From a virus, in IMG/VR virus record IMGVR_UViG_3300032323_000842, positions 1 to 31,772 of that record: 31,772 bases of DNA. One strand, given 5' to 3'. Each line of letters opens with the position of its first letter. Position 1 is the first letter of the stretch. The translations under genes and the position numbers were made by a program. Shown in pieces: positions 767 to 23,176 of this stretch. The notes under the pieces were generated by a model. It worked only from the letters and a program-made list of their open reading frames with translations, made no database searches and was not told where the DNA came from.

Positions 767-1726
767 TTAAATGAGGCTTAGAATGTCATCAACAGTATGT
801 TTAATTAGATGGTTTTGTAAGACATATTTGTAAGACAATGCAGTTTTTACACAGTCGGCAGGATTCCATGATTTTAGTATTTCGGTAAGTTGTTCTTCGG
901 TATCATAGACTGTCCCAAATCGGGCAAGTAGTTTTGCACCAGCAATATTCCGTGCAATCCATGGCGTCTTGTTTAACATCGATTCCAGTATCACTAGACC
1001 AAATCCCTCTGCATCCGAATTCATAATGTAACAGTCTGCATCAGCAATCGCATCTTTGACATCCTTAGGGTCTTCCACCATTAACGGTATCACATTCTCT
1101 GAGGCATGTGGCATGATACCGAAACGATTGTCATACCCGGTAGTTACAAGAATGGCATCTTTTAAATCTGCCTTACGGAATGCATCGGCAAGTTCCATCA
1201 TTTTCTTATTTGGCCAGTAACCACCGCAAGACAAGAACATTGTCTTATCTTTTGGAATATTGTATTTGTCTTTGAAACGACCTTCTGTGCCAATACAATC
1301 ATTTGGTGAAATACCATGAATAACTTTATGAGATTTGTGTTCTTGTTTCCACTTCTTTACATGGTCCCAATCTTCTGGTGCAGAACAACCAATATATTTG
1401 GCATCTTGTAGACCTTTTAGACAAGTAGGACTTTCAGATGGTTTAATCAACATGTAAAGAACAGGTGAATTAATTCGATGTGCATTTTCCAATACAAAGT
1501 TTTGAACACCAACATCACCACCATGAACAACAATTAAATCTTTGTCCATTAATTCTTGTGCTTCTGATGTTACTCTCACGCCATTTAAATGACCTTTGTG
1601 TTCACCTGCCAATACAGTTACATCATGGTGTCTTTGCACACATTCTTCTGCCATTTGTTGCACATAATATTCCGAACCACCAGGGAAAGGTGCATATCGG
1701 TGAACTACAAAACAAATTTTACTCAT
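767..1726 (-). CDS. Glycosyltransferase, GT4-like (GT-B fold)
   Basis: A 319-residue GT-B glycosyltransferase. The N-terminal domain opens with a glycine-rich loop PGGSEYY (residues 15-21). The C-terminal domain starts near SCGGYWPNKKM and carries the donor-binding signature around NSDAEGFGLVILESM, matching the EGFGLxxLE pattern of GT4 retaining enzymes. It should move a sugar from a nucleotide donor to a surface glycan or another acceptor; donor and acceptor are unknown. It is the last gene of the sugar cluster and overlaps the upstream nucleotidyltransferase-cupin gene by ATGA. At 319 residues it is slightly shorter than usual GT4 enzymes (about 350-400). Confidence 0.85.
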   Translation of the reverse strand: MSKICFVVHRYAPFPGGSEYYVQQMAEECVQRHHDVTVLAGEHKGHLNGVRVTSEAQELMDKDLIVVHGGDVGVQNFVLENAHRINSPVLYMLIKPSESPTCLKGLQDAKYIGCSAPEDWDHVKKWKQEHKSHKVIHGISPNDCIGTEGRFKDKYNIPKDKTMFLSCGGYWPNKKMMELADAFRKADLKDAILVTTGYDNRFGIMPHASENVIPLMVEDPKDVKDAIADADCYIMNSDAEGFGLVILESMLNKTPWIARNIAGAKLLARFGTVYDTEEQLTEILKSWNPADCVKTALSYKYVLQNHLIKHTVDDILSLI

Positions 1727-2478
1727 CTTCTTTCAATGTCCTCTTCAACGCACTTTTGACCCCATTGAATTTCTACAATATGCAATGGTTCGTTTGATTC
1801 ATTTGATAACTTATGCCATACACCAGAAGGAATATTCACATGATGGTCTTTATACAATTCTTTTCTAATTGCGGAACTAGGTCTTTCTTCGTGAACAACA
1901 CCTTGTCCTGATACCACATGCCAATATTCATTACGATATGTGTGTCTCTGCATACTCAAAGATAGACCTGGATTTACTGTCAATTCTTTTACTTTACAAG
2001 TTGGTGTCTCATAAAGAACTCTATAATAACCCCATGGTCGATTTGTCTTATTCTCAAAGTAGTTACCTAAAATCCATGAAGAAGAATTCATTTTGTGTTC
2101 ACCACCAACACCAAATGCAAACTCTAGGTTATCATCAGGATATCCCATTTCTAGTGTGTTCTTATCACCTCTGTCACCACCATTTGCAAAGATAATTCTA
2201 TCATTTGGAAATAATTGTCTAGTGATTGTAATTGCAAGATTTGAAGAATCGTCATCATCATTATATTCAATCACATAATCAACCATCTTCAAATTCTTTA
2301 CGATTTGACTTCTTTCATACCAAGTCATAAATGGTCGACCTTTCTTACGGGTCAACCATGCATCTGAATTCAGACCAACAACAAGAACATCACCTAGTGC
2401 CTTTGCGGCATTAAAGTATGCAATATGTCCTGAATGAATTGGGTCAAAACCACCAGTCACTAATACAATTTTTTTCAT
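1723..2478 (-). CDS. Bifunctional sugar nucleotidyltransferase (HldE C-domain-like) fused to a ManC-type cupin
   Basis: Two domains are visible. Residues 1-135 form an HxGH nucleotidyltransferase like the RfaE/HldE C-terminal domain: GGFDPIHSGH at 9-18, a conserved YERSQIV, and KMNSSSWIL in the position of the ISSTxxI motif. Residues 147-245 form a cupin like that of mannose-6-phosphate isomerase type II (RPWGYYRVL, then RHTYRNEYWHVVSG with candidate metal histidines). The expected role is activation of a sugar 1-phosphate, with the cupin isomerising or sensing the sugar; the actual reaction is not provable here. It overlaps gmhA upstream and the GT4 gene downstream by ATGA, so the three are probably translationally coupled. 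Confidence 0.8.
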   Translation of the reverse strand: MKKIVLVTGGFDPIHSGHIAYFNAAKALGDVLVVGLNSDAWLTRKKGRPFMTWYERSQIVKNLKMVDYVIEYNDDDDSSNLAITITRQLFPNDRIIFANGGDRGDKNTLEMGYPDDNLEFAFGVGGEHKMNSSSWILGNYFENKTNRPWGYYRVLYETPTCKVKELTVNPGLSLSMQRHTYRNEYWHVVSGQGVVHEERPSSAIRKELYKDHHVNIPSGVWHKLSNESNEPLHIVEIQWGQKCVEEDIERR

Positions 2479-3080
2479 AGTTTAATTCCATCGTTTCTAC
2501 TATTTGTTTCACGAATGTGTTGTGCCAAGATATGCATTAATGCTTGATGACAATCTTCAACGATACCATAGTTATCTTCTCGCACATGTAAAACATAATC
2601 AGCAAGTTCTGCGGCTTTACCACCATCAAAACCTACAAACGCAATTACTTCCATATTCAGTTTGTGTGCCTGATTGATTGCTCTGATAATGTTTGGTGAA
2701 TTACCTGATGCAGAAATCGCAACGAGAATATCACCTGCACTACCTTTCATACTCAACTGAAATGCAAACACATCATCATATCCAATATCGTTTGCAATTG
2801 CGGTCAAAATAGAACCTGAAGTCAATGGTTCAATTTTTGGTCGCAACAGAGCATCATAGTGTGTACCTTTTGCATGGTCGCAATGAAAGTGGTCACTCAT
2901 CGTAAGAGAACCGCCATTACCACACACAAAAACTGGCAATCTTTTCTTGTATGCCAGTTCTAAAGTTTCTAAAACTTTTTGTAATTGTAACTTATCTACT
3001 GATTCTAAACCTGCGTTTACTCGGTTTGCGTAATTAGATAGTCGTTGATTTATTTGCGATGTTATTGACATACCATTCAT
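2475..3080 (-). CDS. gmhA: Phosphoheptose isomerase (GmhA-like, SIS domain)
   Basis: A 201-residue single SIS domain, the usual length for GmhA, which converts sedoheptulose 7-phosphate to D-glycero-D-manno-heptose 7-phosphate. The sugar-phosphate loop is VCGNGGSLTMSDHFHCDHAK, followed by AISASGNSPNI, the second SIS phosphate-binding segment. Polar residues near the C-terminus (EDCHQALMH) match the region of the GmhA catalytic histidine. The start at 3080 lies inside the upstream reductase gene (47-nt overlap) and has AAAAAGG just before it; an internal ATG three codons later (3071) is the alternative. With the HddA-like kinase two genes upstream it defines the entry to a heptose pathway. Confidence 0.9.
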   Translation of the reverse strand: MNGMSITSQINQRLSNYANRVNAGLESVDKLQLQKVLETLELAYKKRLPVFVCGNGGSLTMSDHFHCDHAKGTHYDALLRPKIEPLTSGSILTAIANDIGYDDVFAFQLSMKGSAGDILVAISASGNSPNIIRAINQAHKLNMEVIAFVGFDGGKAAELADYVLHVREDNYGIVEDCHQALMHILAQHIRETNSRNDGIKL

Positions 3081-4002
3081 AAGCCTTTTTCAATCCAATA
3101 TTTAAGTCTGTTTTAGGTGTCCAACCTAATCTTGTAATTCTACTATTATCAGTAAGTTTGTTCATAGTTCCATCAGGTTTACTGGTATCATACACAATCT
3201 CACCATCATAGTCAAGAGCTTGTTTTGCGATTTTTACAAACTCACCGATTTCGATATCATGGCCTGCGCCAACATTCACAAATGCCTGCATAGGTTCTGT
3301 TACTGATTCCCATAATTTTTTATCGACATTCATTACATGAATTGCGGCATCTGCCATATCGTCAACATAAACAAATTCTCTACGAGGTTTACCTGTTCCC
3401 CAAACTATGAATTGTTTATCACCATTTACTTTTGCACGATGAATTCTTTGAATCACACCTGCGGCCAAGTGACCATTTGCTTCGTCATAGTTATCACCAG
3501 GTCCATAAAGATTACATGGTAGAATAGAACGATAGTCTGTACCAAATTGACGATTGTAACTTTCACACATTTTGATACCTGCAATCTTGGCAACTGCATA
3601 TGGTTCGTTTGTTGGTTCTAACTTACCAGTCATTAGTGTTTCTTCTTTGATTGGATTCTCAGCAAACTTAGGAAGAATACATGTAGAACCCAAAAACAAA
3701 AGTTTCTGCACACCATGAACATATGCTTGATGAATTACATTTGATTGAATCATCAAATTCTTATAAATGAAATCACCAGGATAAGTATTGTTACCTACAA
3801 TGCCACCCACTTTTGCAGCTGCGACATAAACTTGGTCGATTTTATTTGTTGCGAAAAAATCTTTTACTGCTTGTTGATTTGTTAAATCTAATTCATTATG
3901 TGTTCTTGTAATGATATCATTTTTATTGACACCACTATCAATCAGTCTGCGAACAATTGCAGAACCGATAAGTCCTCGGTGACCTGCCACAAAAATTTTC
4001 AT
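3034..4002 (-). CDS. GDP-L-fucose synthase-like epimerase/reductase (extended SDR)
   Basis: A 322-residue extended short-chain dehydrogenase. It has the Rossmann motif GHRGLIGSA (residues 7-15), GSTCILPKF where GDP-fucose synthases have GSSCIYPKxA, and the catalytic YAVAK. Family enzymes epimerise C3/C5 and reduce the 4-keto group of a GDP-4-keto-6-deoxy-hexose with NADPH. Given the heptose genes around it, the true substrate may be a GDP-4-keto-6-deoxy-heptose, as with the WcaG-like reductases of Campylobacter capsule pathways; this is inference. The RBS is GAGG, 6 nt before the ATG, one base after the kinase stop codon. Confidence 0.88.
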   Translation of the reverse strand: MKIFVAGHRGLIGSAIVRRLIDSGVNKNDIITRTHNELDLTNQQAVKDFFATNKIDQVYVAAAKVGGIVGNNTYPGDFIYKNLMIQSNVIHQAYVHGVQKLLFLGSTCILPKFAENPIKEETLMTGKLEPTNEPYAVAKIAGIKMCESYNRQFGTDYRSILPCNLYGPGDNYDEANGHLAAGVIQRIHRAKVNGDKQFIVWGTGKPRREFVYVDDMADAAIHVMNVDKKLWESVTEPMQAFVNVGAGHDIEIGEFVKIAKQALDYDGEIVYDTSKPDGTMNKLTDNSRITRLGWTPKTDLNIGLKKAYEWYVNNIANKSTTI

Positions 4003-4003
4003 A

Positions 4004-5005
4004 TTATACCTCTTGGTCTTGATAATCGTGATATATTAATTGACTGCCCAAATATTCAAAATCGATGGGCACTTCTTTAAGTCCTAATGCGTATGCAACA
4101 TTCTTTTGTTTGTCTGGTGGTGTTAAGAATAACATAAACCCACCACCTCCAGCACCTAACAGTTTACCACCAACTGCACCTGCACGAAGTCCTTTTGTGT
4201 AAATCTCATCAATGTCACTATTGGTGATTGACTTCTCAATGGTCTTTTTATGTTTCCATTGTTCATCCATTAACTTACCCAACTCTTGCACTTTTGTTTC
4301 ACTATTGGAGAACAAGATTCTTTCGGCTTCTTCTGTGATTTGTTTTACGATATTCAAATCAACAGATTTTGCCTTAATGTTTTCAATTTTCTTTTCTGCA
4401 ATGTCCGAAGCATTTCTCAATTGTTCAGTAAAGAATACTTGAACCCATGATTCTAGTTCTTTGATTGTATTCTTATTGACATGCATCGGAGAACATAAAA
4501 ACTCGGATGCACCACCAAATGTAACTTTATTGAAACCACCAAATGCAGCTGCAACTTGGTCTTGTGAACCAACAGATTCACCAAGAATGTTTTGTTCTAA
4601 GTTAATTGCTTCGAGTGCAAGGTCTCTTTTAGTTGGGTTTTTGTTTTGTAATACAGAAAGACCATGCAATAATCCTACTGTAAAACTAGAACTTGAACCG
4701 ACACCTGTGCGATTTGGTAAATCACCGTGATGAGTAATATCAAGTCCATCTGTGAAACCCATGTGACGAATCGCCTCACGAATTACAGGTACTTGAATAT
4801 CTTCAACAGAATTTGTTTCTTGTCTATCGTAATACCTGATTCTATATTTGTAATCAAAGATAGGTGGTAATTTTCTCAATACAAGAAAAGAATATTTGTT
4901 GATGGTGGTAGAAATGACTGCACCACCATGTTCTCTGTACCATGCGGGATAGTCTGTGCTACCGCCAAAAAATGAAATGCGATATGGTGTTCTAATGATA
5001 ATCAT
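4004..5005 (-). CDS. hddA: D-glycero-D-manno-heptose 7-phosphate kinase (HddA-like GHMP kinase)
   Basis: A 333-residue GHMP-superfamily kinase. The N-terminal RTPYRISFFGGSTDYPAWY is close to the HddA signature. The ATP-binding loop is TGVGSSSSFTVG, and the third GHMP motif is KLLGAGGGGFMLF near the C-terminus. HddA phosphorylates heptose 7-phosphate at the anomeric position, the step after GmhA. The gene overlaps the FkbM methyltransferase by ATGA. Length and motifs are complete. A fucokinase-type activity is the alternative, but the combination with gmhA favours a heptose. Confidence 0.87.
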   Translation of the reverse strand: MIIIRTPYRISFFGGSTDYPAWYREHGGAVISTTINKYSFLVLRKLPPIFDYKYRIRYYDRQETNSVEDIQVPVIREAIRHMGFTDGLDITHHGDLPNRTGVGSSSSFTVGLLHGLSVLQNKNPTKRDLALEAINLEQNILGESVGSQDQVAAAFGGFNKVTFGGASEFLCSPMHVNKNTIKELESWVQVFFTEQLRNASDIAEKKIENIKAKSVDLNIVKQITEEAERILFSNSETKVQELGKLMDEQWKHKKTIEKSITNSDIDEIYTKGLRAGAVGGKLLGAGGGGFMLFLTPPDKQKNVAYALGLKEVPIDFEYLGSQLIYHDYQDQEV

Positions 5006-5541
5006 AGAATGTGTTTAATTTTTTCATAGTGAGATTCGTGAACAAACACATCATCGATATGATGTTCACCATGTTTAATCTCTGCAATCAAATAATAACC
5101 TTTATCTTCCATCATCTGACGAGCAGGGTCTCTTGTTGAAGTATCTCTATAATAATCAACTTCGAAAGTAACCACATTGAAGATATACTTTGTTTCCATA
5201 ATCTTGCAGAATGCCTGATAGGTAACTTCAGGTGGTTCTAAGTCAACAGACAAATAATCAATTACATCGGGCATGTTATTGTCTGCAAGAACTTTCACAT
5301 AATCAACTTTCAATGCATCTTCATTGATATAGAATGTATTTGGTCGATTCTTCCAACCTTCATTATATCTTTCATCGATTTCAACTGCAACACCTCGCCA
5401 CAGTCTTTCTTTCTCAAAGAAATAACTATTGTTCATTTTATCGAAGAATGAACCACCAACATCAAGAAAAGTGCCATTTACTTTTTGTTGCATTATTCTA
5501 TCGACAAGAACATCTTGTCCTAATTGTGAATAGTATGTCAT
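5002..5541 (-). CDS. FkbM-family SAM-dependent methyltransferase
   Basis: A 179-residue class I methyltransferase. YYSQLGQDVLVDRIM is the typical FkbM opening, FLDVGG (residues 25-30) is the SAM-binding motif I, and DYLSVDLEPPE is the conserved acidic segment. FkbM enzymes O-methylate sugars or small molecules. Inside this cluster the likely target is a hydroxyl on the glycan or on the activated sugar. It is shorter than many FkbM proteins (about 230-280), but no motif looks missing. It overlaps both neighbours by ATGA. Confidence 0.85.
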   Translation of the reverse strand: MTYYSQLGQDVLVDRIMQQKVNGTFLDVGGSFFDKMNNSYFFEKERLWRGVAVEIDERYNEGWKNRPNTFYINEDALKVDYVKVLADNNMPDVIDYLSVDLEPPEVTYQAFCKIMETKYIFNVVTFEVDYYRDTSTRDPARQMMEDKGYYLIAEIKHGEHHIDDVFVHESHYEKIKHIL

Positions 5542-6554
5542 CGTGTTAAAAACTTTCCTTTATTTTCTGCAACTCGTTCACGCCAGTAATTCAACAAATC
5601 TTCCATTGTCTGTTTGTATGCAATCTCTGGTTTCCAACCTGTATGTAAACGAAACTTTTCTGTGTTTGGAACTTGTAAGTCTGCATCAATTGGTCGCAAC
5701 CTGTCAGGGTCAACTTCTACACGAATCTGTTCTTTCATTGTAGATAGTGACAATAGAGTATTCAACACATCACCAATTTCACAAGTAAATGTACCACCAA
5801 TATTGTAGTATGCACCTGGTACAGGATTGTGTGTTAGTAACAGATAGTATGCTCTTACGGCATCTCTCACATCTGCAATTGTTCTGAGTGATTTTAAATT
5901 ACCAACTTTAACAACTGGTTCAATATAACCTGCCTCAATCATTGCAATTTGTTTTGCGAATGTAGATTCTGCAAATACATCACCACGGCGAGGACCTGTG
6001 TGTGTAAACATTCTTGTAGTCTGCACATTCATATTGTATGCTTCTGCATAGAAACGACCAACTAGGTCTGTACCACATTTTGAAATGGCATATGGTGATG
6101 CAGGATGAAAACTACATTCTTCATCGATTGGTAGTTTATCTTGTGGTACTCGACCAAAAACTTCTGATGAAGCACAAACATGAATCTGTGCTTGTGGCAC
6201 ATGTTTCTTACAGGCATCTAGTAGTCTTACTGTGCCTTGAACATTGACATTTAGTGTTTCGATTGGCGAATCAAAACTGGTTTTAGGAAAACTTTGGGCC
6301 GCCAAATGGAATACATAGTCAGGCGCATTGTCTTTGATTGCTGTATCAATCGAAATTCCATCGTTTAAATCTCCGTAAACTAATTTAACACGATTCTTGG
6401 TGTTAATATTCTCAATTAAATTTTTAATATTGTCAAGTGGACTTCTCCAACGAATAAGACCGACAATATTCCAATCAGTATTCGCAATCAAATATTCAGC
6501 AAGGTGTGAACCAACCATGCCGGTGATACCAGTAATAAAGGCTACTTTTGCCAT
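5538..6554 (-). CDS. GDP-mannose 4,6-dehydratase-like SDR
   Basis: A 338-residue extended SDR close to GDP-mannose 4,6-dehydratase. It shows ITGITGMVGSHLAEYL (NAD(P)-binding), SSEVFG, the catalytic YAISK, HTGPRRGDVFAES and LRTIADVRDAVRAYY, all Gmd landmarks. It produces a GDP-4-keto-6-deoxy sugar. Campylobacter and Yersinia homologues act on GDP-manno-heptose, and the gmhA and hddA genes in this operon make that plausible here. The start at 6554 has GGAG 5 nt upstream and overlaps the preceding glycosyltransferase by 13 nt. Confidence 0.9.
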   Translation of the reverse strand: MAKVAFITGITGMVGSHLAEYLIANTDWNIVGLIRWRSPLDNIKNLIENINTKNRVKLVYGDLNDGISIDTAIKDNAPDYVFHLAAQSFPKTSFDSPIETLNVNVQGTVRLLDACKKHVPQAQIHVCASSEVFGRVPQDKLPIDEECSFHPASPYAISKCGTDLVGRFYAEAYNMNVQTTRMFTHTGPRRGDVFAESTFAKQIAMIEAGYIEPVVKVGNLKSLRTIADVRDAVRAYYLLLTHNPVPGAYYNIGGTFTCEIGDVLNTLLSLSTMKEQIRVEVDPDRLRPIDADLQVPNTEKFRLHTGWKPEIAYKQTMEDLLNYWRERVAENKGKFLTR

Positions 6555-7567
6555 GCCATCTCCGATGCTTCAATCATATCATTCAAACGATTGATGTAAG
6601 TGTGTTTATCTTTTACTTTTTTCATTTGATTCAAAATCAAATCTTTTGTCTTTGGGTTGTCTTGCATTTCTTTTGCAATGTAAAACAACTCACTTGTATC
6701 GGCAGAATATGCAATCTCTTGGTCAAAGAAATCATATGCAGTCTTAGAGTTTGTAATGCCAAGACAACCATAACTCACATTCTTAATTGAACGACAAGAC
6801 ATGTAACCATTTGCAAGGTGATTGTTTGGTCGAACTTCAAATGGCAGATAAGAATTCAAAACAAATTCTTTTAATTGTTCTGATGGTAATGGATTCTTAT
6901 GTGGGTCATTGTGAACAAAAGGAATATTATTCTTCTTACATTCTTCTGCAAACTTCACAACATAATCATAGTTGCCATCATCTTTGCTTTGCCAACCTTG
7001 TGTGATTGAACCACCAAATGATGCATACTTGGGTTCGTGAAATGGTCTGAAACGATTCTCAAAATTGATTTCATTTGGTAACAAGTCTGTCGCCCAAATA
7101 GAATAAAAGATATCGTATTTGTCACCAGATTCAAAGAATGAAGTGCCATCGTTAATTGGTGTGTATTTCTCTTTTTCAAAATAGTATGCATAGTTTTTAT
7201 CTACGACACCATTGACACCCCAATTACACGCAAATCTAAAATCAATCAAACGACCTACTTTACCAAGGTACATGTCCGCACCTGGATTTCCTTCAACAGG
7301 TCCTTTATTACCAAGATAATGAATGATGTATGTTGAAGTGGGTCTGAGTGGCAGATTGTTGCTGATGCCATTTTGAAATACTAACCATTGTTCAGAAATG
7401 ATAAGTGCATCATCAAAGAATTCATCTGGCAAGTTATCTCTGTTATCTAACCAGTATGTTTGATATCCTTCATGTAGTGATGCACGAACAAGAGCATCAT
7501 GCACAAAGGCATGAGTGTGTCTTGTATCAGGTTTTGCACCCCAAATAATTACTTTTGAATGTCTCAT
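6542..7567 (-). CDS. Probable GT-B glycosyltransferase (CgeB/GT1-like C-terminus)
   Basis: A 341-residue protein without a strong family signature. Its last 90 residues (SYGCLGITNSKTAYDFF, then an acidic surface segment and KDKHTYINRLNDM) follow the usual end of glycosyltransferase group 1/CgeB proteins: a loop replacing the donor site, a helix, then a terminal HTYxxR segment. Aromatic residues are frequent, and no signal peptide or membrane segment is seen. The gene sits between a dehydratase and a methyltransferase in the sugar operon and overlaps both. A glycosyltransferase is the best guess, with moderate certainty. Confidence 0.6.
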   Translation of the reverse strand: MRHSKVIIWGAKPDTRHTHAFVHDALVRASLHEGYQTYWLDNRDNLPDEFFDDALIISEQWLVFQNGISNNLPLRPTSTYIIHYLGNKGPVEGNPGADMYLGKVGRLIDFRFACNWGVNGVVDKNYAYYFEKEKYTPINDGTSFFESGDKYDIFYSIWATDLLPNEINFENRFRPFHEPKYASFGGSITQGWQSKDDGNYDYVVKFAEECKKNNIPFVHNDPHKNPLPSEQLKEFVLNSYLPFEVRPNNHLANGYMSCRSIKNVSYGCLGITNSKTAYDFFDQEIAYSADTSELFYIAKEMQDNPKTKDLILNQMKKVKDKHTYINRLNDMIEASEMAWQK

Positions 7568-8205
7568 TTAATTAGAAACCACGCATTATTTTCAACAATC
7601 TTCACAGGAGTTTCTTTAAAGAATTCTTTGACTGCAGCATCAACTGAAGTTAAATTGATATCGTGACCTGCAAAGAGTCCGCCTTTTTTAACTTTAGGCC
7701 AATAACTTTGAATGTCTGCAAGTGTTGCTTCGTAACTGTGGTCACCATCTACGAAAACGAAATCTAGTGAATCATCTTCGAGAGTTTGTGCAAAATTTAC
7801 ACTATGCTCATATGCGAATGTAACTTTGTCACCAAACTTTTCTAGTCTTGATTTACACAATCTCTTTGTAACTTCTTGTCTCTCTACGGTGATTCTAGTG
7901 CCATCCCAATCGATAAAAGAAGGATAGTTATCTACAACATATAGTTTTTTAATTGTAGGTGTGTTTTTAAGAAAATACTCTGATGTGAATCCATGACATA
8001 CGCCAATCTCACAACCAACTAAGTCACCACTCAACTCTTGGATAAAAGGTAGAAGTCCACGACCAGAAATATTCGATTCGATTCGACCATATTCAATTTG
8101 TTTCTGCACCCATTCTTCAGGACCTAGATGGTCGTATGGGTCACGGCATTGAACAGGTTCTTTTACTAAATTTGATGTTGTATCAATAATTAATGTATCA
8201 CTCAT
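7564..8205 (-). CDS. Class I SAM-dependent methyltransferase (Methyltransf_24-like)
   Basis: A 213-residue methyltransferase. GCEIGVCHGFTSEYFL is motif I, and DFVFVDGDHSYEATLADIQ followed by KKGGLFAGHDI is the hallmark of the Methyltransf_24/cephalosporin-hydroxylase-like group. It probably decorates a glycan. The ATG at 8205 is preferred over an in-frame TTG at 8217. It overlaps the upstream stop codon by 8 nt and lacks a strong Shine-Dalgarno, so coupling to the upstream gene is likely. It overlaps the downstream gene by ATGA. Confidence 0.82.
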   Translation of the reverse strand: MSDTLIIDTTSNLVKEPVQCRDPYDHLGPEEWVQKQIEYGRIESNISGRGLLPFIQELSGDLVGCEIGVCHGFTSEYFLKNTPTIKKLYVVDNYPSFIDWDGTRITVERQEVTKRLCKSRLEKFGDKVTFAYEHSVNFAQTLEDDSLDFVFVDGDHSYEATLADIQSYWPKVKKGGLFAGHDINLTSVDAAVKEFFKETPVKIVENNAWFLIK

Positions 8206-9052
8206 ATTTTTTCTCAATTATTTGTTTCCACTCAGGAACTCTATCATACTGATGAACGATTGAAAATGGTCGACCATCACTTGTGCAAACCATATTATCT
8301 ACTAAAATTGGAGATTTTTCAACCAGCTTGTCAGCATATTTACCTGCAACATGAGGACCTGTTGTACCTAACTGAGCAGCATAACCATCTTCACTCATTG
8401 CAAAGTTTGTGATATCTTTGTATGGTTTCATGTTCAAAAGAATGTTGACTGCTGCCTGGTCAGGACCACCACCGCCTTCTGTCCAATGACTTGTGCCATT
8501 ACACAACATGTAAACATTCAAAAAGAAATCGAGCATTGTATCAAACTTACCCGATACTGTGCCTGCATTATAGATTAGATTGTTTTGATTGTGGTCGTGA
8601 ACTAATGGACCAAATGCTTTGAAAAGATTGTGATTACCCCAATCTTCGTCTTTGTAACGAATAGATTCACATGCAACATTAATCTCTTTGTCGCCAATGT
8701 TCTTTTCAATCCATTCAGATGGGTTGGTCTGAAAGATTACATCTTTAACATCGGTAGAAATAATGTATCGGTATTGTCCTTGAAACTTCTTTAGAAAATA
8801 CCACATGTGAAGAAATCTCTCTACAACAATAGAGAAGTTTTCTTTGTATTCGAATTTTTTGAGATTGTCGTTCTTACCGAACGCCAAAACTGTGTATTGT
8901 CTTTTGACAAGTTCTTCCACGGTTTCATAATCTACATTATAACAAATCATGGCTTTAACACCATCAAAACCAGACCTGTCTAACGAATTAACCCAAGGTT
9001 TGATTTTGTCAAATGTATAACCAGTGATACAACCAACCACAATGTCTTTCAT
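8198..9052 (-). CDS. Putative GT-A type glycosyltransferase
   Basis: A 284-residue protein with a nucleotide-diphospho-sugar transferase layout. An N-terminal strand (DIVVGCITGYTFDKI) is followed by a segment ending in YIISTDVKDVIFQ, where the acidic DxxD stands in for the metal-binding DxD of GT-A enzymes. Farther on, NAGTVSG and GGGGPDQAAVN resemble acceptor and catalytic loops of this fold. The ATG at 9052 has GGAG 8 nt upstream and is preferred to the in-frame TTG at 9064. It is the first gene of the sugar cluster. Confidence 0.65.
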   Translation of the reverse strand: MKDIVVGCITGYTFDKIKPWVNSLDRSGFDGVKAMICYNVDYETVEELVKRQYTVLAFGKNDNLKKFEYKENFSIVVERFLHMWYFLKKFQGQYRYIISTDVKDVIFQTNPSEWIEKNIGDKEINVACESIRYKDEDWGNHNLFKAFGPLVHDHNQNNLIYNAGTVSGKFDTMLDFFLNVYMLCNGTSHWTEGGGGPDQAAVNILLNMKPYKDITNFAMSEDGYAAQLGTTGPHVAGKYADKLVEKSPILVDNMVCTSDGRPFSIVHQYDRVPEWKQIIEKKYE

Positions 9053-19953: not shown

Positions 19954-20170
19954 TGACCTTTGTCTCCGCAGGAACAACACCGATGGTCACCCATCGTTTA
20001 GGGAATAACATTTCTCGACCTTGAAAATCTCTCATATCAGAGGTCGGGTCTTGCATCCATCCAATTACCTCAACCATATCATCGAATTCACGGAGAAACA
20101 AATCATATCTCTCTGCACGGGGCATTTTGTTTTCGATGGCGAGTTTCTTAGCAATTTCACGGGTGTTCAT
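19946..20170 (-). CDS. Small conserved phage protein (74 aa)
   Basis: A 74-residue soluble protein of unknown function. The N-terminal half is helical and charged (REIAKKLAIENKMPRAERY); the C-terminal half holds EMLFPKRWVTIGVVPAE, probably strands. It overlaps the upstream gene by ATGA and the next by 8 nt, within the tightly packed set of small genes upstream of gp43. Confidence 0.7.
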   Translation of the reverse strand: MNTREIAKKLAIENKMPRAERYDLFLREFDDMVEVIGWMQDPTSDMRDFQGREMLFPKRWVTIGVVPAETKVNV

Positions 20171-20817
20171 TCTTTTCTTTCCTTAAAGTCGTAGAAAAAA
20201 TCATTGTTATTTCGAGCAGAATGCTTATTGAATTTCTCTACTGAATATAACTTTGTTGCAATTTTAAAATCTGGAATCTTAAACTCTGGTACAGTCAAAG
20301 AAGCATCATAGAATAATGTTTTATTGTTTGGTTGTGCGGCAAATTGTCCGTTATCCAACTTAATAAAATTATAACTCTTATGTTCTTCTACTGTTTCAGA
20401 AAATCCTGTATTAAGATAACCAGGGTCATTTTGGCAAAAATCTACGGTGAACATATACTCACCGAAGTGCCATTTTCTATCCTTGTCCAAGAACTTACAC
20501 TTCAACATACGAAGGTTGTCTTTTTCAATGACAGTAAAATTATAACTCAAAGCGTCCCAAATTTGCAAGTAGTCCAGAGGCAAAGATGCATCTTTTAAGT
20601 TATCTTGCCTTGATACGAAGGCATGTAGTGGTAGTTTATCATATAAAGCACCATAATTGGGCAATAGTGCTTCGATTCGGAATGCCTGTCCTTTGATACA
20701 CTTCATGGTCATCCAAAGACATGGTTCGTATTCACCATAACCTTTTTCGAAATCGTATAAGAATTCTTTCTTAACAAAACATTGAACAGGTGGTAGGTTG
20801 TGGACTAAAAATGCCAT
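20167..20817 (-). CDS. Conserved T4-like phage protein of unknown function (216 aa)
   Basis: A 216-residue soluble protein without a recognised domain. Aromatic and cysteine residues cluster early (CFVKKEFLYDFEKGYGEY, then PCLWMTMKC). The middle has LPLHAFVSRQD and WHFGEYMFTVDF, suggesting a beta-rich fold; the C-terminus is charged (KHSARNNNDFFYDFKERKE). Similar proteins occur, from memory, in T4-like cyanophages near replication genes. It overlaps MazG-like upstream (TAATG) and the 74-residue gene downstream (ATGA). Confidence 0.75.
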   Translation of the reverse strand: MAFLVHNLPPVQCFVKKEFLYDFEKGYGEYEPCLWMTMKCIKGQAFRIEALLPNYGALYDKLPLHAFVSRQDNLKDASLPLDYLQIWDALSYNFTVIEKDNLRMLKCKFLDKDRKWHFGEYMFTVDFCQNDPGYLNTGFSETVEEHKSYNFIKLDNGQFAAQPNNKTLFYDASLTVPEFKIPDFKIATKLYSVEKFNKHSARNNNDFFYDFKERKE

Positions 20818-21183: not shown

Positions 21184-21642
21184 TTAAACTTTCTTATTCA
21201 ATTCAGATTGATAGGTTCTTTGTCTCAATTCGGAAGAACTAAACCGATGTGTGCGAGAGTTGTAGTATGTTTTAATACCTCTTGCATCACAAATTTCACG
21301 ACCTGTTAAAGGTTTATCTTTATATTCTTCACCACAAATACGAACTGTGATAGGTAAGAACATCAACAAATCTTCTAGGTCTTTTTCGGTGTCATAGACG
21401 ATAATCTCATCTACGAATTTTACGGCAGATAGTTGAACATATCTTTCAACTACTGATTGAACTGGTTTGTTTTTTGTATTTGGTCTGTCGATTGTTGGGT
21501 CAGATTGTAGACCAACAATTAAGTGGTCACAAACAGATTTACATTCTGCCAACATTAGAATATGACCTGCATGTAAGAGGTCAAAAGTGGAACAGGTAAA
21601 GCCGATAGGGCGGCCAATCATATCATCAGGTAGAACTAACAT
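21184..21642 (-). CDS. Cytidylyltransferase-like protein (TagD/HldE superfamily)
   Basis: A 152-residue HxGH nucleotidyltransferase near glycerol-3-phosphate cytidylyltransferase in size. TCSTFDLLHAGH is the nucleotide-binding start; ERYVQLSAVKFVDEIIVYD is the typical middle; RFSSSELRQR replaces the RTxGISTT loop. Substrates are unknown. Two adjacent ATGs exist (21645, 21642); GGAG lies 4 or 7 nt upstream, favouring the second. An 8-bp hairpin and a late-promoter-like element lie just upstream, separating it from pqqA. Confidence 0.85.
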   Translation of the reverse strand: MLVLPDDMIGRPIGFTCSTFDLLHAGHILMLAECKSVCDHLIVGLQSDPTIDRPNTKNKPVQSVVERYVQLSAVKFVDEIIVYDTEKDLEDLLMFLPITVRICGEEYKDKPLTGREICDARGIKTYYNSRTHRFSSSELRQRTYQSELNKKV

Positions 21643-21665
21643 CATATAACTCCATCATAAAGGTT

Positions 21666-21689: not shown

Positions 21690-21697
21690 TATTTATT
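21690..21697 (-). promoter_or_regulatory. Possible late promoter (AATAAATA)
   Basis: One mismatch from TATAAATA, overlapping the pqqA stop codon and 48 nt above the cytidylyltransferase-like start. AT-rich chance matches are possible. Confidence 0.35.
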
Positions 21698-21768
21698 TAG
21701 CGATTTGCGATATACATCGTGATTTCAAATCCATAACGCATTTCTACCGCTTCAGGTTTTGTCCACAT
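21697..21768 (-). CDS. pqqA: PqqA, pyrroloquinoline quinone precursor peptide (23 aa)
   Basis: A 23-codon ORF with the PqqA hallmarks: an MWTKP start and a GFEITMYIANR end, in which Glu15 and Tyr19 have the obligatory E-x-x-x-Y spacing. In bacteria PqqE, with the chaperone PqqD, cross-links these two side chains; proteases and PqqB/PqqC then complete PQQ, cofactor of methanol, glucose and alcohol dehydrogenases. Length equals that of many bacterial PqqAs (22-24). The ATG has AAGGAG 6 nt upstream, the best RBS in this region. No pqqBCDE is present, so host enzymes would be needed. It has its own promoter-like sequence, a 16-bp palindrome upstream and a hairpin downstream. Confidence 0.88.
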   Translation of the reverse strand: MWTKPEAVEMRYGFEITMYIANR

Positions 21769-21862: not shown

Positions 21863-22369
21863 CTACGAATTTAACACTTTCGCCACACTATTCATAACTG
21901 ATGCGATTCTTCCGATATCTCTCAGTTGTTCAACACTATAACCCATCTTTTTCAGACCATCATAGTGTGCTTTAACACAGAAGTGACATTTACCAACGAT
22001 AGAAGCGGCAAGAGAATATGCCTCAAATCTTTCTTTGGTTGTACCACCATGAGTTGAAATTGCGTTCATGCGAAGTTGTGCAGGTAGTCCTTTGAGTTGC
22101 TCATCTTCTGCCATCTCAACATATGGATACCACACATTGTTTTGTGCCATCAAACTTGCAGCAGTCATAGCGGCATTTGCTTCAACGGGTGCATCAGCAA
22201 GTAGAACCGCTAGTAATTTACCATTACCAGTTGCGGCCAAAGCGGCAACTGCACAACCCATCGCTTCATCTGCATTGAGTGTGCTACGCAAAAGAACCGC
22301 ATCAAGGTTTAACTTGGCGTCTTTTGCATAGTCAGGCAACGCTTCTTTAACAGAATCGATGAATGCCAT
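21863..22369 (-). CDS. ahpD: AhpD-like alkyl hydroperoxidase / AhpC reductant
   Basis: A 168-residue all-helical AhpD/CMD-family protein. The active-site signature is complete: E116, C128, H129, C131 and H135 in KCHFCVKAH, with the E-12-C-3-C-4-H spacing of mycobacterial AhpD. AhpD passes electrons from a lipoyl partner to AhpC and has weak peroxidase activity itself. Length (about 170-177 in bacteria) is normal. It overlaps ahpC by TAATG, so the two are coupled. The alanine-rich composition is unlike most phage proteins nearby and suggests recent bacterial origin. Confidence 0.9.
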   Translation of the reverse strand: MAFIDSVKEALPDYAKDAKLNLDAVLLRSTLNADEAMGCAVAALAATGNGKLLAVLLADAPVEANAAMTAASLMAQNNVWYPYVEMAEDEQLKGLPAQLRMNAISTHGGTTKERFEAYSLAASIVGKCHFCVKAHYDGLKKMGYSVEQLRDIGRIASVMNSVAKVLNS

Positions 22370-22911
22370 TATAGTGTTTCTCCACCTACTGCACGATTAC
22401 ATGCACAGAGTTCACCTGTTTGCAATGCATCCAAAATACGCAATGTTTCTTCTGGATTACGACCAACATTCAAGTTGTTAACTGTAACATGTTGAATCTC
22501 ATTCTTTGGGTCAACAATCAATGTAACTCGTAATGCTGCGCCAGCAGGTTCATAGAAGTAACCTAATTGTTGAATGAGAGATTTTTCCCAATCACGGCTA
22601 ACATCTGCAAACTGAATGTGTTTAATCTTCTGCAAATCTGGATGTGCTTTTTGCCACGCCACTTTACAGAATTCGTTGTCTGTCGAACCAGTCAATAGAA
22701 CTGCATCACGGTCCTCAAAGTCTTGTGCCAATTTATCATATGCAACAATTTCAGTTGGACATACGAATGTGAAATCTTTTGGATAGTAAACAATTACTTT
22801 CCACTTACCTGGAAAAGATTCTTCTGTAATTGGGAAGAAAGCATCTTCAGGTTGACCGGGTTTTACACCTGTCACTACAAACGATTCTAATTTATCGCCT
22901 ACGGTTTTCAT
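22369..22911 (-). CDS. ahpC: AhpC peroxiredoxin
   Basis: A 180-residue 2-Cys peroxiredoxin that reduces hydrogen peroxide, organic peroxides and peroxynitrite. The peroxidatic Cys51 lies in DFTFVCPTEI. The C-terminal GELCACNR gives Cys169 and Cys171, the CxC pair seen in AhpD-dependent (mycobacterial-type) AhpC. The ATG has AGGAG 6 nt upstream. A promoter-like sequence and dyad lie in the 76-nt gap above. Neighbouring ahpD supplies the matching reductant, so this looks like a functional pair rather than a stray gene. Confidence 0.94.
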   Translation of the reverse strand: MKTVGDKLESFVVTGVKPGQPEDAFFPITEESFPGKWKVIVYYPKDFTFVCPTEIVAYDKLAQDFEDRDAVLLTGSTDNEFCKVAWQKAHPDLQKIKHIQFADVSRDWEKSLIQQLGYFYEPAGAALRVTLIVDPKNEIQHVTVNNLNVGRNPEETLRILDALQTGELCACNRAVGGETL

Positions 22912-22950: not shown

Positions 22951-22969
22951 ATCAATAATACTTATTAAT

Positions 22970-22998
22970 AGTATAGTCAATAAACCATTATTTGTCTA
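22970..22998 (-). promoter_or_regulatory. Putative sigma70-type promoter of ahpCD
   Basis: On the minus strand TAGACA (993-998) and TATACT (970-975) are separated by 17 nt, each hexamer 5/6 to consensus. The -35 lies in the end of the AbrB-like gene. An expected start near 22963 gives a leader of about 50 nt. Confidence 0.5.
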
Positions 22999-23176
22999 AT
23001 GATTTTTTCCTATGTTCCTCATCGATTTTTTTAATAATGATATTGCCATTCTTTTCGGAGATATCAAGGGTGTCGCCTTCTTTCCATCCCGTTTCTTCCA
23101 ATAATTCAGGTGGCAATTCTACGATTGCATCACCATTATCGCATATTTCAAGAACTTTTGAGGTAAATGTTTTCAT
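22988..23176 (-). CDS. AbrB/SpoVT-type DNA-binding protein
   Basis: A 62-residue swapped-hairpin AbrB-family protein: DAIVELPPELLEETGWKEG, then DTLDISEKNGNIIIKKI, which matches the MazE/AbrB strand-turn-strand layout. Such proteins bind DNA as dimers and serve as transition regulators or antitoxins. No toxin gene is adjacent, so a transcription regulator is more likely. It overlaps the dCMP deaminase gene by ATGA and sits directly above the ahpC promoter. Confidence 0.8.
   Translation of the reverse strand: MKTFTSKVLEICDNGDAIVELPPELLEETGWKEGDTLDISEKNGNIIIKKIDEEHRKKSLDK

Follow-up and report, generated by a model that had tools for sequence, protein, structure and literature searches.

The ahpC and ahpD genes of the window (the whole stretch of 31,772 nucleotides that was analysed) probably form a working peroxide-reducing module, i.e. 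a Burkholderiales-type operon that is maintained by selection and sits in an exchangeable slot behind a dedicated promoter-like element. The window itself is a segment of a T4-like phage, with clamp loader, sliding clamp, RegA, Hsp20, dCMP deaminase and DNA polymerase genes around the pair. For this DNA polymerase, identity to cyanophage polymerases reaches 52.7%. As host-derived metabolic genes in a phage replication and structural context, ahpC and ahpD can be classed as auxiliary metabolic genes.

The AhpC and AhpD proteins

The ahpC gene (22369..22911, minus strand) encodes a 2-Cys peroxiredoxin of 180 amino acids and ahpD (21863..22369, minus strand) a CMD-fold adaptor disulfide reductase of 168 amino acids. 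Both reading frames are intact. At the junction (...CTATAATGGC...), the stop codon of ahpC overlaps the start codon of ahpD as TAATG. The cysteines of AhpC are located at positions 51, 82, 169 and 171, where C51 is the peroxidatic residue and C169-x-C171 the C-terminal resolving motif. In AhpD, the residues E116, C128, H129, F130, C131 and H135 can be read, the CxxC motif being formed by C128 and C131.

In Pfam, AhpC belongs to AhpC-TSA (PF00578, E=1.3e-18) and AhpD to the CMD/AhpD family (PF02627, E=7.1e-9). The more specific NCBIfam models give lower scores: AhpC obtains 104 bits against the AhpC equivalog TIGR03137 (curated cut-off 272) and is not assigned to it, while AhpD obtains 115.7 bits over the full length of TIGR00777 (curated cut-off 191.95) and passes the core-domain model TIGR00778 (28.3 against a cut-off of 27.8). 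Because these scores lie under the curated cut-offs, both proteins are regarded as divergent members of their families. The evidence for their folds comes from profile matches: the best solved structure is AhpC from M. tuberculosis (2bmx, E=9e-49) for the phage AhpC family profile, and AhpD from the same organism (1gu9, E=1e-31, full-length alignment) for the AhpD profile. The M. tuberculosis proteins share the CxC motif of AhpC and the CxxC motif with Glu and His of AhpD.

The catalytic residues are strictly conserved. P44, T48, C51 and R128 of AhpC (the P-x-x-x-T-x-x-C motif and the distal Arg) are invariant in all 24 phage and 78 bacterial rows that were aligned. C51, C169 and C171 are present in 114/114 distinct phage AhpC proteins, and E116, C128, C131 and H135 in 113/113 distinct phage AhpD proteins. 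C82 is likewise invariant in the phages and was considered as a phage-specific extra redox Cys; this was rejected, since a Cys is also found here in 21 of the 78 bacterial rows and the residue is thus inherited.

The AhpD relay of M. tuberculosis consists of E118, C130, H132, C133 and H137, in which H132 directly precedes the second Cys (PMC3141380). In the phage AhpD this place is taken by F130 instead, and the relay His is thus missing. H132 is, however, not absolutely conserved among AhpDs (PMC3141380); Phe also occupies its place in 46/78 bacterial rows, and the CHFC motif occurs in most Burkholderiales AhpDs. An earlier note on this DNA had listed E116, C128, H129, C131 and H135 for AhpD. 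Four of these are indeed catalytic, but H129 is an additional His, as the relay place belongs to F130. The other sequence features given in that note hold: the TAATG overlap and the AhpC residues C51 and C169/C171 are as described, and the loss of catalytic residues in sister phages, which was looked for, did not occur in any of the 114 AhpC and 113 AhpD proteins.

Outside the catalytic positions, the loop after residue 106 of phage AhpC varies in length, by insertions that reach about 18 residues (e.g. L104, L069 and L128). In locus L079, the AhpC reading frame comprises 294 amino acids and runs on into the C-terminus of a membrane protein, which forms a separate ORF of 138 amino acids in L060 (5583-5999). 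The L079 frame may be a real fusion or an artefact of assembly or a frameshift.

No AhpD, and hence no ahpC-ahpD pair, was found in 50,697 isolate phage records. AhpC homologues in these records reach at most 35% identity over at least 80% of the query, and many are located on short unannotated records. The uncultured viral contigs of IMG/VR, in contrast, contain at least 593 AhpD and at least 598 AhpC loci. Both genes are present in 154 of the 159 loci examined, always on one strand, with ahpC preceding ahpD. The -1 overlap is their most frequent spacing, and extra genes separate the two in some viral loci. On the 10.3-kb contig L057, ahpD occurs without ahpC, which could lie beyond the contig start. 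Together with the invariant catalytic residues, this co-occurrence bears out the view that the phage carries a matched AhpC-AhpD system and not a lone peroxiredoxin. The median dN/dS (Nei-Gojobori) is 0.075 for AhpC and 0.070 for AhpD, values that are rough given a median dS of about 1.3.

The records that carry the pair span 4 kb to 357 kb, and a Gp23-family capsid gene (in two score classes) was detected in 16/28 large records. As most ahpCD loci lack the flanking genes of the window, several lineages of phages have come to carry the module. A class-V aminotransferase (cysteine desulfurase-like) was seen near ahpC/ahpD in L299 (3660-4868) and in L057 (110-1354); in the latter, serine hydroxymethyltransferase and class II aldolase genes also precede ahpD.

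Ancestry and electron supply

A genome scan with the AhpD alignment placed the nearest cellular relatives in the Burkholderiales, where ahpC lies just upstream of ahpD wherever both fall within the fetched stretch, i.e. in the same tandem order as in the phages. Trees were built from 24 phage and 78 bacterial pairs, with the bacterial sampling within Pseudomonadota. All phage proteins form a single clade in the AhpC tree (support 100). In the AhpD tree, 22/24 phage proteins are united in one clade (support 98), and all 24 lie on one side of a weak branch (support 41); the AhpD of the L113/L095 group may represent a second, separate acquisition. In both trees the phage proteins fall in one group of 72 rows with the identical 48 Burkholderiales rows. 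Phylogeny had been named in the earlier note as the check on a joint origin, and the shared bacterial neighbours speak in its favour. The trees support a joint transfer of the operon from the Burkholderiales side and leave the precise donor at that level.

One candidate donor was rejected. The NCBI contig JAURFW010000053.1 (L168), which is binned in a Bacteroidota MAG, carries ahpC and ahpD; its ahpC is of the phage type and other genes lie between the pair. The contig is probably a mis-binned phage fragment and was excluded from the analysis.

The sampled Burkholderiales homologues of the Burkholderia thailandensis type show 60-69% identity to the phage AhpC and 47-62% to the phage AhpD. The B. 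thailandensis enzymes display the same ahpC-ahpD order and corresponding cysteines (C57, C171 and C173 in AhpC; C131 and C134 in AhpD), but the bacterial genes are 5-281 bp apart, whereas those of the phage overlap. The control also differs: ahpC of B. thailandensis is under OxyR, while the phage pair lies behind a phage-specific element that is absent from the bacterial loci.

It was shown for B. thailandensis that C57 of AhpC is peroxidatic and C171/C173 are resolving, that C131/C134 of AhpD are needed, and that AhpD binds AhpC directly (PMC6626918). In the same work, NADH was oxidised with peroxide in an assay of the chain NADH-Lpd-SucB-AhpD-AhpC; thioredoxin also reduced AhpC, and AhpC reduced peroxynitrite as well (PMC6626918). 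The phage proteins keep all of these functional Cys residues. No biotin/lipoyl domain was detected in any of the 28 large phage records, while one was found in 14/14 control genomes. Since no lipoyl partner is encoded by these phages, the electrons have to be supplied by the host. The tie to a host lipoyl protein, which had been proposed earlier for AhpD, is thereby strengthened, also by the published B. thailandensis assay (PMC6626918). By analogy with that system, the phage AhpD would draw on the E2/Lpd pair of the host.

The following course can be proposed. The pair would have come from a betaproteobacterium of the Burkholderiales type as a single operon, and purifying selection would maintain it in many uncultured tailed phages. 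Early in infection, C51 of AhpC would reduce H2O2, organic peroxides or peroxynitrite and then be linked to C169/C171 of the partner subunit by a disulfide. The C128-x-x-C131 motif of AhpD would reduce AhpC in turn, and AhpD itself would be re-reduced by the dihydrolipoyl E2 protein and lipoamide dehydrogenase of the host, at the expense of NADH. In related T4-like phages, rubrerythrin and rubredoxin would do the same job from an exchangeable slot, both versions of the module using one dedicated promoter-like element.

The exchangeable slot and its promoter-like element

The slot is bounded upstream by a small AbrB/MazE-like protein (22988..23176, minus strand; PF04014, with TIGR02609 and TIGR01439 under their cut-offs) and downstream by a cytidylyltransferase-like gene (21184..21645, minus strand; PF01467). 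Slot loci were fetched independently of ahpCD, with the neighbouring gene at 20167-20817 as bait. The latter (minus strand, 216 amino acids) is labelled "ferredoxin" by PHROG 3704, yet it matches no Pfam family and lacks an evident Fe-S cysteine motif, and the label looks wrong. In some records of 346-349 kb, its homologue is situated between ahpC and ahpD. Farther away in the window, a run of sugar/LPS-type genes (767-8217, minus strand) contains a glycosyltransferase, a SIS-domain isomerase, a fusion of cytidylyltransferase and mannose-6-phosphate isomerase, and a methyltransferase.

The slot is spanned in 57 of the loci, of which 16 contain ahpC and ahpD, 13 contain rubrerythrin and 28 contain neither. 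The two modules never occur together in these 57 slots, nor does ahpC or ahpD occur alone. This zero overlap has a hypergeometric P of about 0.007 if the loci are taken as independent, although they belong to related phages and are not; the mutual exclusion is accordingly seen as support, not as proof. Consistent with it, rubrerythrin is absent from all 26 large records with ahpC, and the whole record L315 contains rubrerythrin and lacks ahpCD.

In sequence, rubrerythrin (PF02915) and rubredoxin (PF00301) show no relationship to AhpC and AhpD. The alternative module thus shares the slot, the element and the inferred function, but differs in protein family and chemistry. A rubredoxin-like ORF and rubrerythrin occupy the slot in L260 (4345-4960) and also in L252, L257, L389 and L401. 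A second rubrerythrin type, followed by rubredoxin, was found in L252, L380, L388, L396 and others. Rubrerythrin with rubredoxin is chiefly known for reducing H2O2.

The loss of a module can be read directly from L267, a close relative of L260. The flanks of the L260 module (96% and 98.5% identical) meet in L267, where an internal deletion of about 654 bp has removed the element together with rubredoxin and almost the whole of rubrerythrin. At the scar (about 2856-2890), the AbrB-like protein is fused in frame to the last rubrerythrin codons and ends in ...LEAHKAEQ.

This deletion and the 28/57 slots without a module would be expected if the operon had been picked up by chance and were useless to the phage. 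Such a passenger role is nevertheless highly improbable: dN/dS stays at about 0.07 over diverse phages, the catalytic residues are invariant, the genes persist in hundreds of loci, and a non-homologous replacement by rubrerythrin has taken place behind the same element.

The element in question (22959..22998, minus strand; 41 nt) reads TAGACA-N17-TATACT-N5-ATAAGTA and is located 48 nt before the ahpC start. With fixed spacing, the form TTAGACA-N17-TA(T/A)ANT-AT-NN-ATAAGTA is shared upstream of ahpC and of rubredoxin/rubrerythrin. A consensus scan of the region ranks the element of the window jointly first among nine sigma-70-like sites (10/12). The 14 distinct versions observed differ in their spacers and lie 27-55 nt ahead of the gene. 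Its left block overlaps the last codons of the AbrB-like gene, and the conservation could therefore be partly coding. The element occurs at most once per record in fifteen phage records, where a reversed-pattern control yielded zero matches; it is absent from 28/28 slots without a module and from the bacterial ahpC-ahpD loci examined. When a stricter pattern was scanned over 2.9 million viral contigs, blind to genes, 34 matches were obtained: 17 directly before ahpC, 17 directly before rubredoxin or rubrerythrin and none elsewhere, although several stem from near-identical phages and the independent cases are fewer than 34. Among the 156 ahpC loci obtained with the ahp-based scans, only 7 have the element upstream of ahpC, which confines this dedicated promoter-like sequence to a single lineage of phages, that of the window. 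It may be a plain early promoter or an operator as well.

That an unrelated peroxide reductase is found in the same slot and behind the same element makes it probable that the phage needs this site for removing peroxide. We lean, by a modest margin, towards a broader reading, in which T4-like phages that infect freshwater bacteria maintain a dedicated, separately controlled slot against peroxide. Any available reductase (AhpC-AhpD, rubredoxin-rubrerythrin or rubrerythrin-rubredoxin) could be placed behind one conserved promoter or operator element with no other gene to serve, and the function would be selected, not the enzyme.

A related question is which oxidant is removed. The main substrate could be an oxidant from host defence or a nitrosative one (peroxynitrite, NO-derived) in place of H2O2 or organic peroxides, given that B. 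thailandensis AhpC also reduces peroxynitrite (PMC6626918). This is improbable, as the genes recognised around the slot include none for defence. The alternative rubrerythrin/rubredoxin, being an H2O2 reductase, points to peroxide as the shared substrate. The peroxide might arise from the forced metabolism that the earlier note named.

pqqA, the host and biological meaning

The next gene after ahpD is pqqA (21697..21768, minus strand), which is unannotated and encodes the 23-residue pyrroloquinoline-quinone precursor peptide MWTKPEAVEMRYGFEITMYIANR. PqqA scores 37.4 bits against TIGR02107 (cut-off 20) and 35.6 bits against PF08042, and the crosslinked Glu and Tyr are present in FEITMY. Among viral loci, 20 sequence variants were observed.

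PqqC forms H2O2, and in the window pqqA immediately follows ahpD; the module might thus serve a PQQ or methanol metabolism that is boosted via pqqA, clearing peroxide from PqqC and from faster oxidation. T4-like phages with 35% GC and pqqA from Lake Baikal were indeed assigned to Methylophilaceae (PMC7678222). This explanation is nonetheless unlikely. A coupling of pqqA to peroxide was rejected as the main explanation on the co-occurrence counts from the 57 slots, where pqqA accompanies ahpCD in 3/16, rubrerythrin in 3/13 and neither module in 14/28; it is present in 7/28 large records. Although it occupies the same variable region, pqqA is linked with neither module and was treated as a separate auxiliary gene. 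A methanol dehydrogenase in the ahpCD phages was rejected as well: the large ahpCD records gave a single weak TIGR03075 match below cut-off, in an ORF of 545 amino acids. The N-terminal part of this ORF resembles a phosphoribosyltransferase and not a dehydrogenase.

Methanol dehydrogenase was, in contrast, reported in the Lake Baikal phages (PMC7678222). As for the host, the window's phage resembles the Methylophilaceae phages described there, VP_139 and VP_266, which are likewise T4-like, low in GC and equipped with pqqA. That paper makes no mention of AhpC, AhpD or peroxide defence.

AhpC and AhpD themselves are ordinary enzymes. A virus-associated ahpC is likewise known from Microcystis virus populations of Lake Erie, for which a role in oxidative stress was proposed (PMC12542629); AhpD was not found in the part of that paper considered here. 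Phage AhpC-AhpD pairs were not found mentioned in the open-licence papers searched and are likely new, and the phage module, the module swapping and the dedicated element appear unreported.

Phage metabolic genes are usually assigned a function by annotation alone. Two unrelated enzymes that are interchanged at one controlled site provide independent evidence that peroxide reduction is selected during infection. The slot swap suggests that oxidative stress genuinely limits the replication of phages, and the fitness of the phage would be linked to the lipoyl enzymes and NADH of its host. The element and its cassette form a small, testable system.
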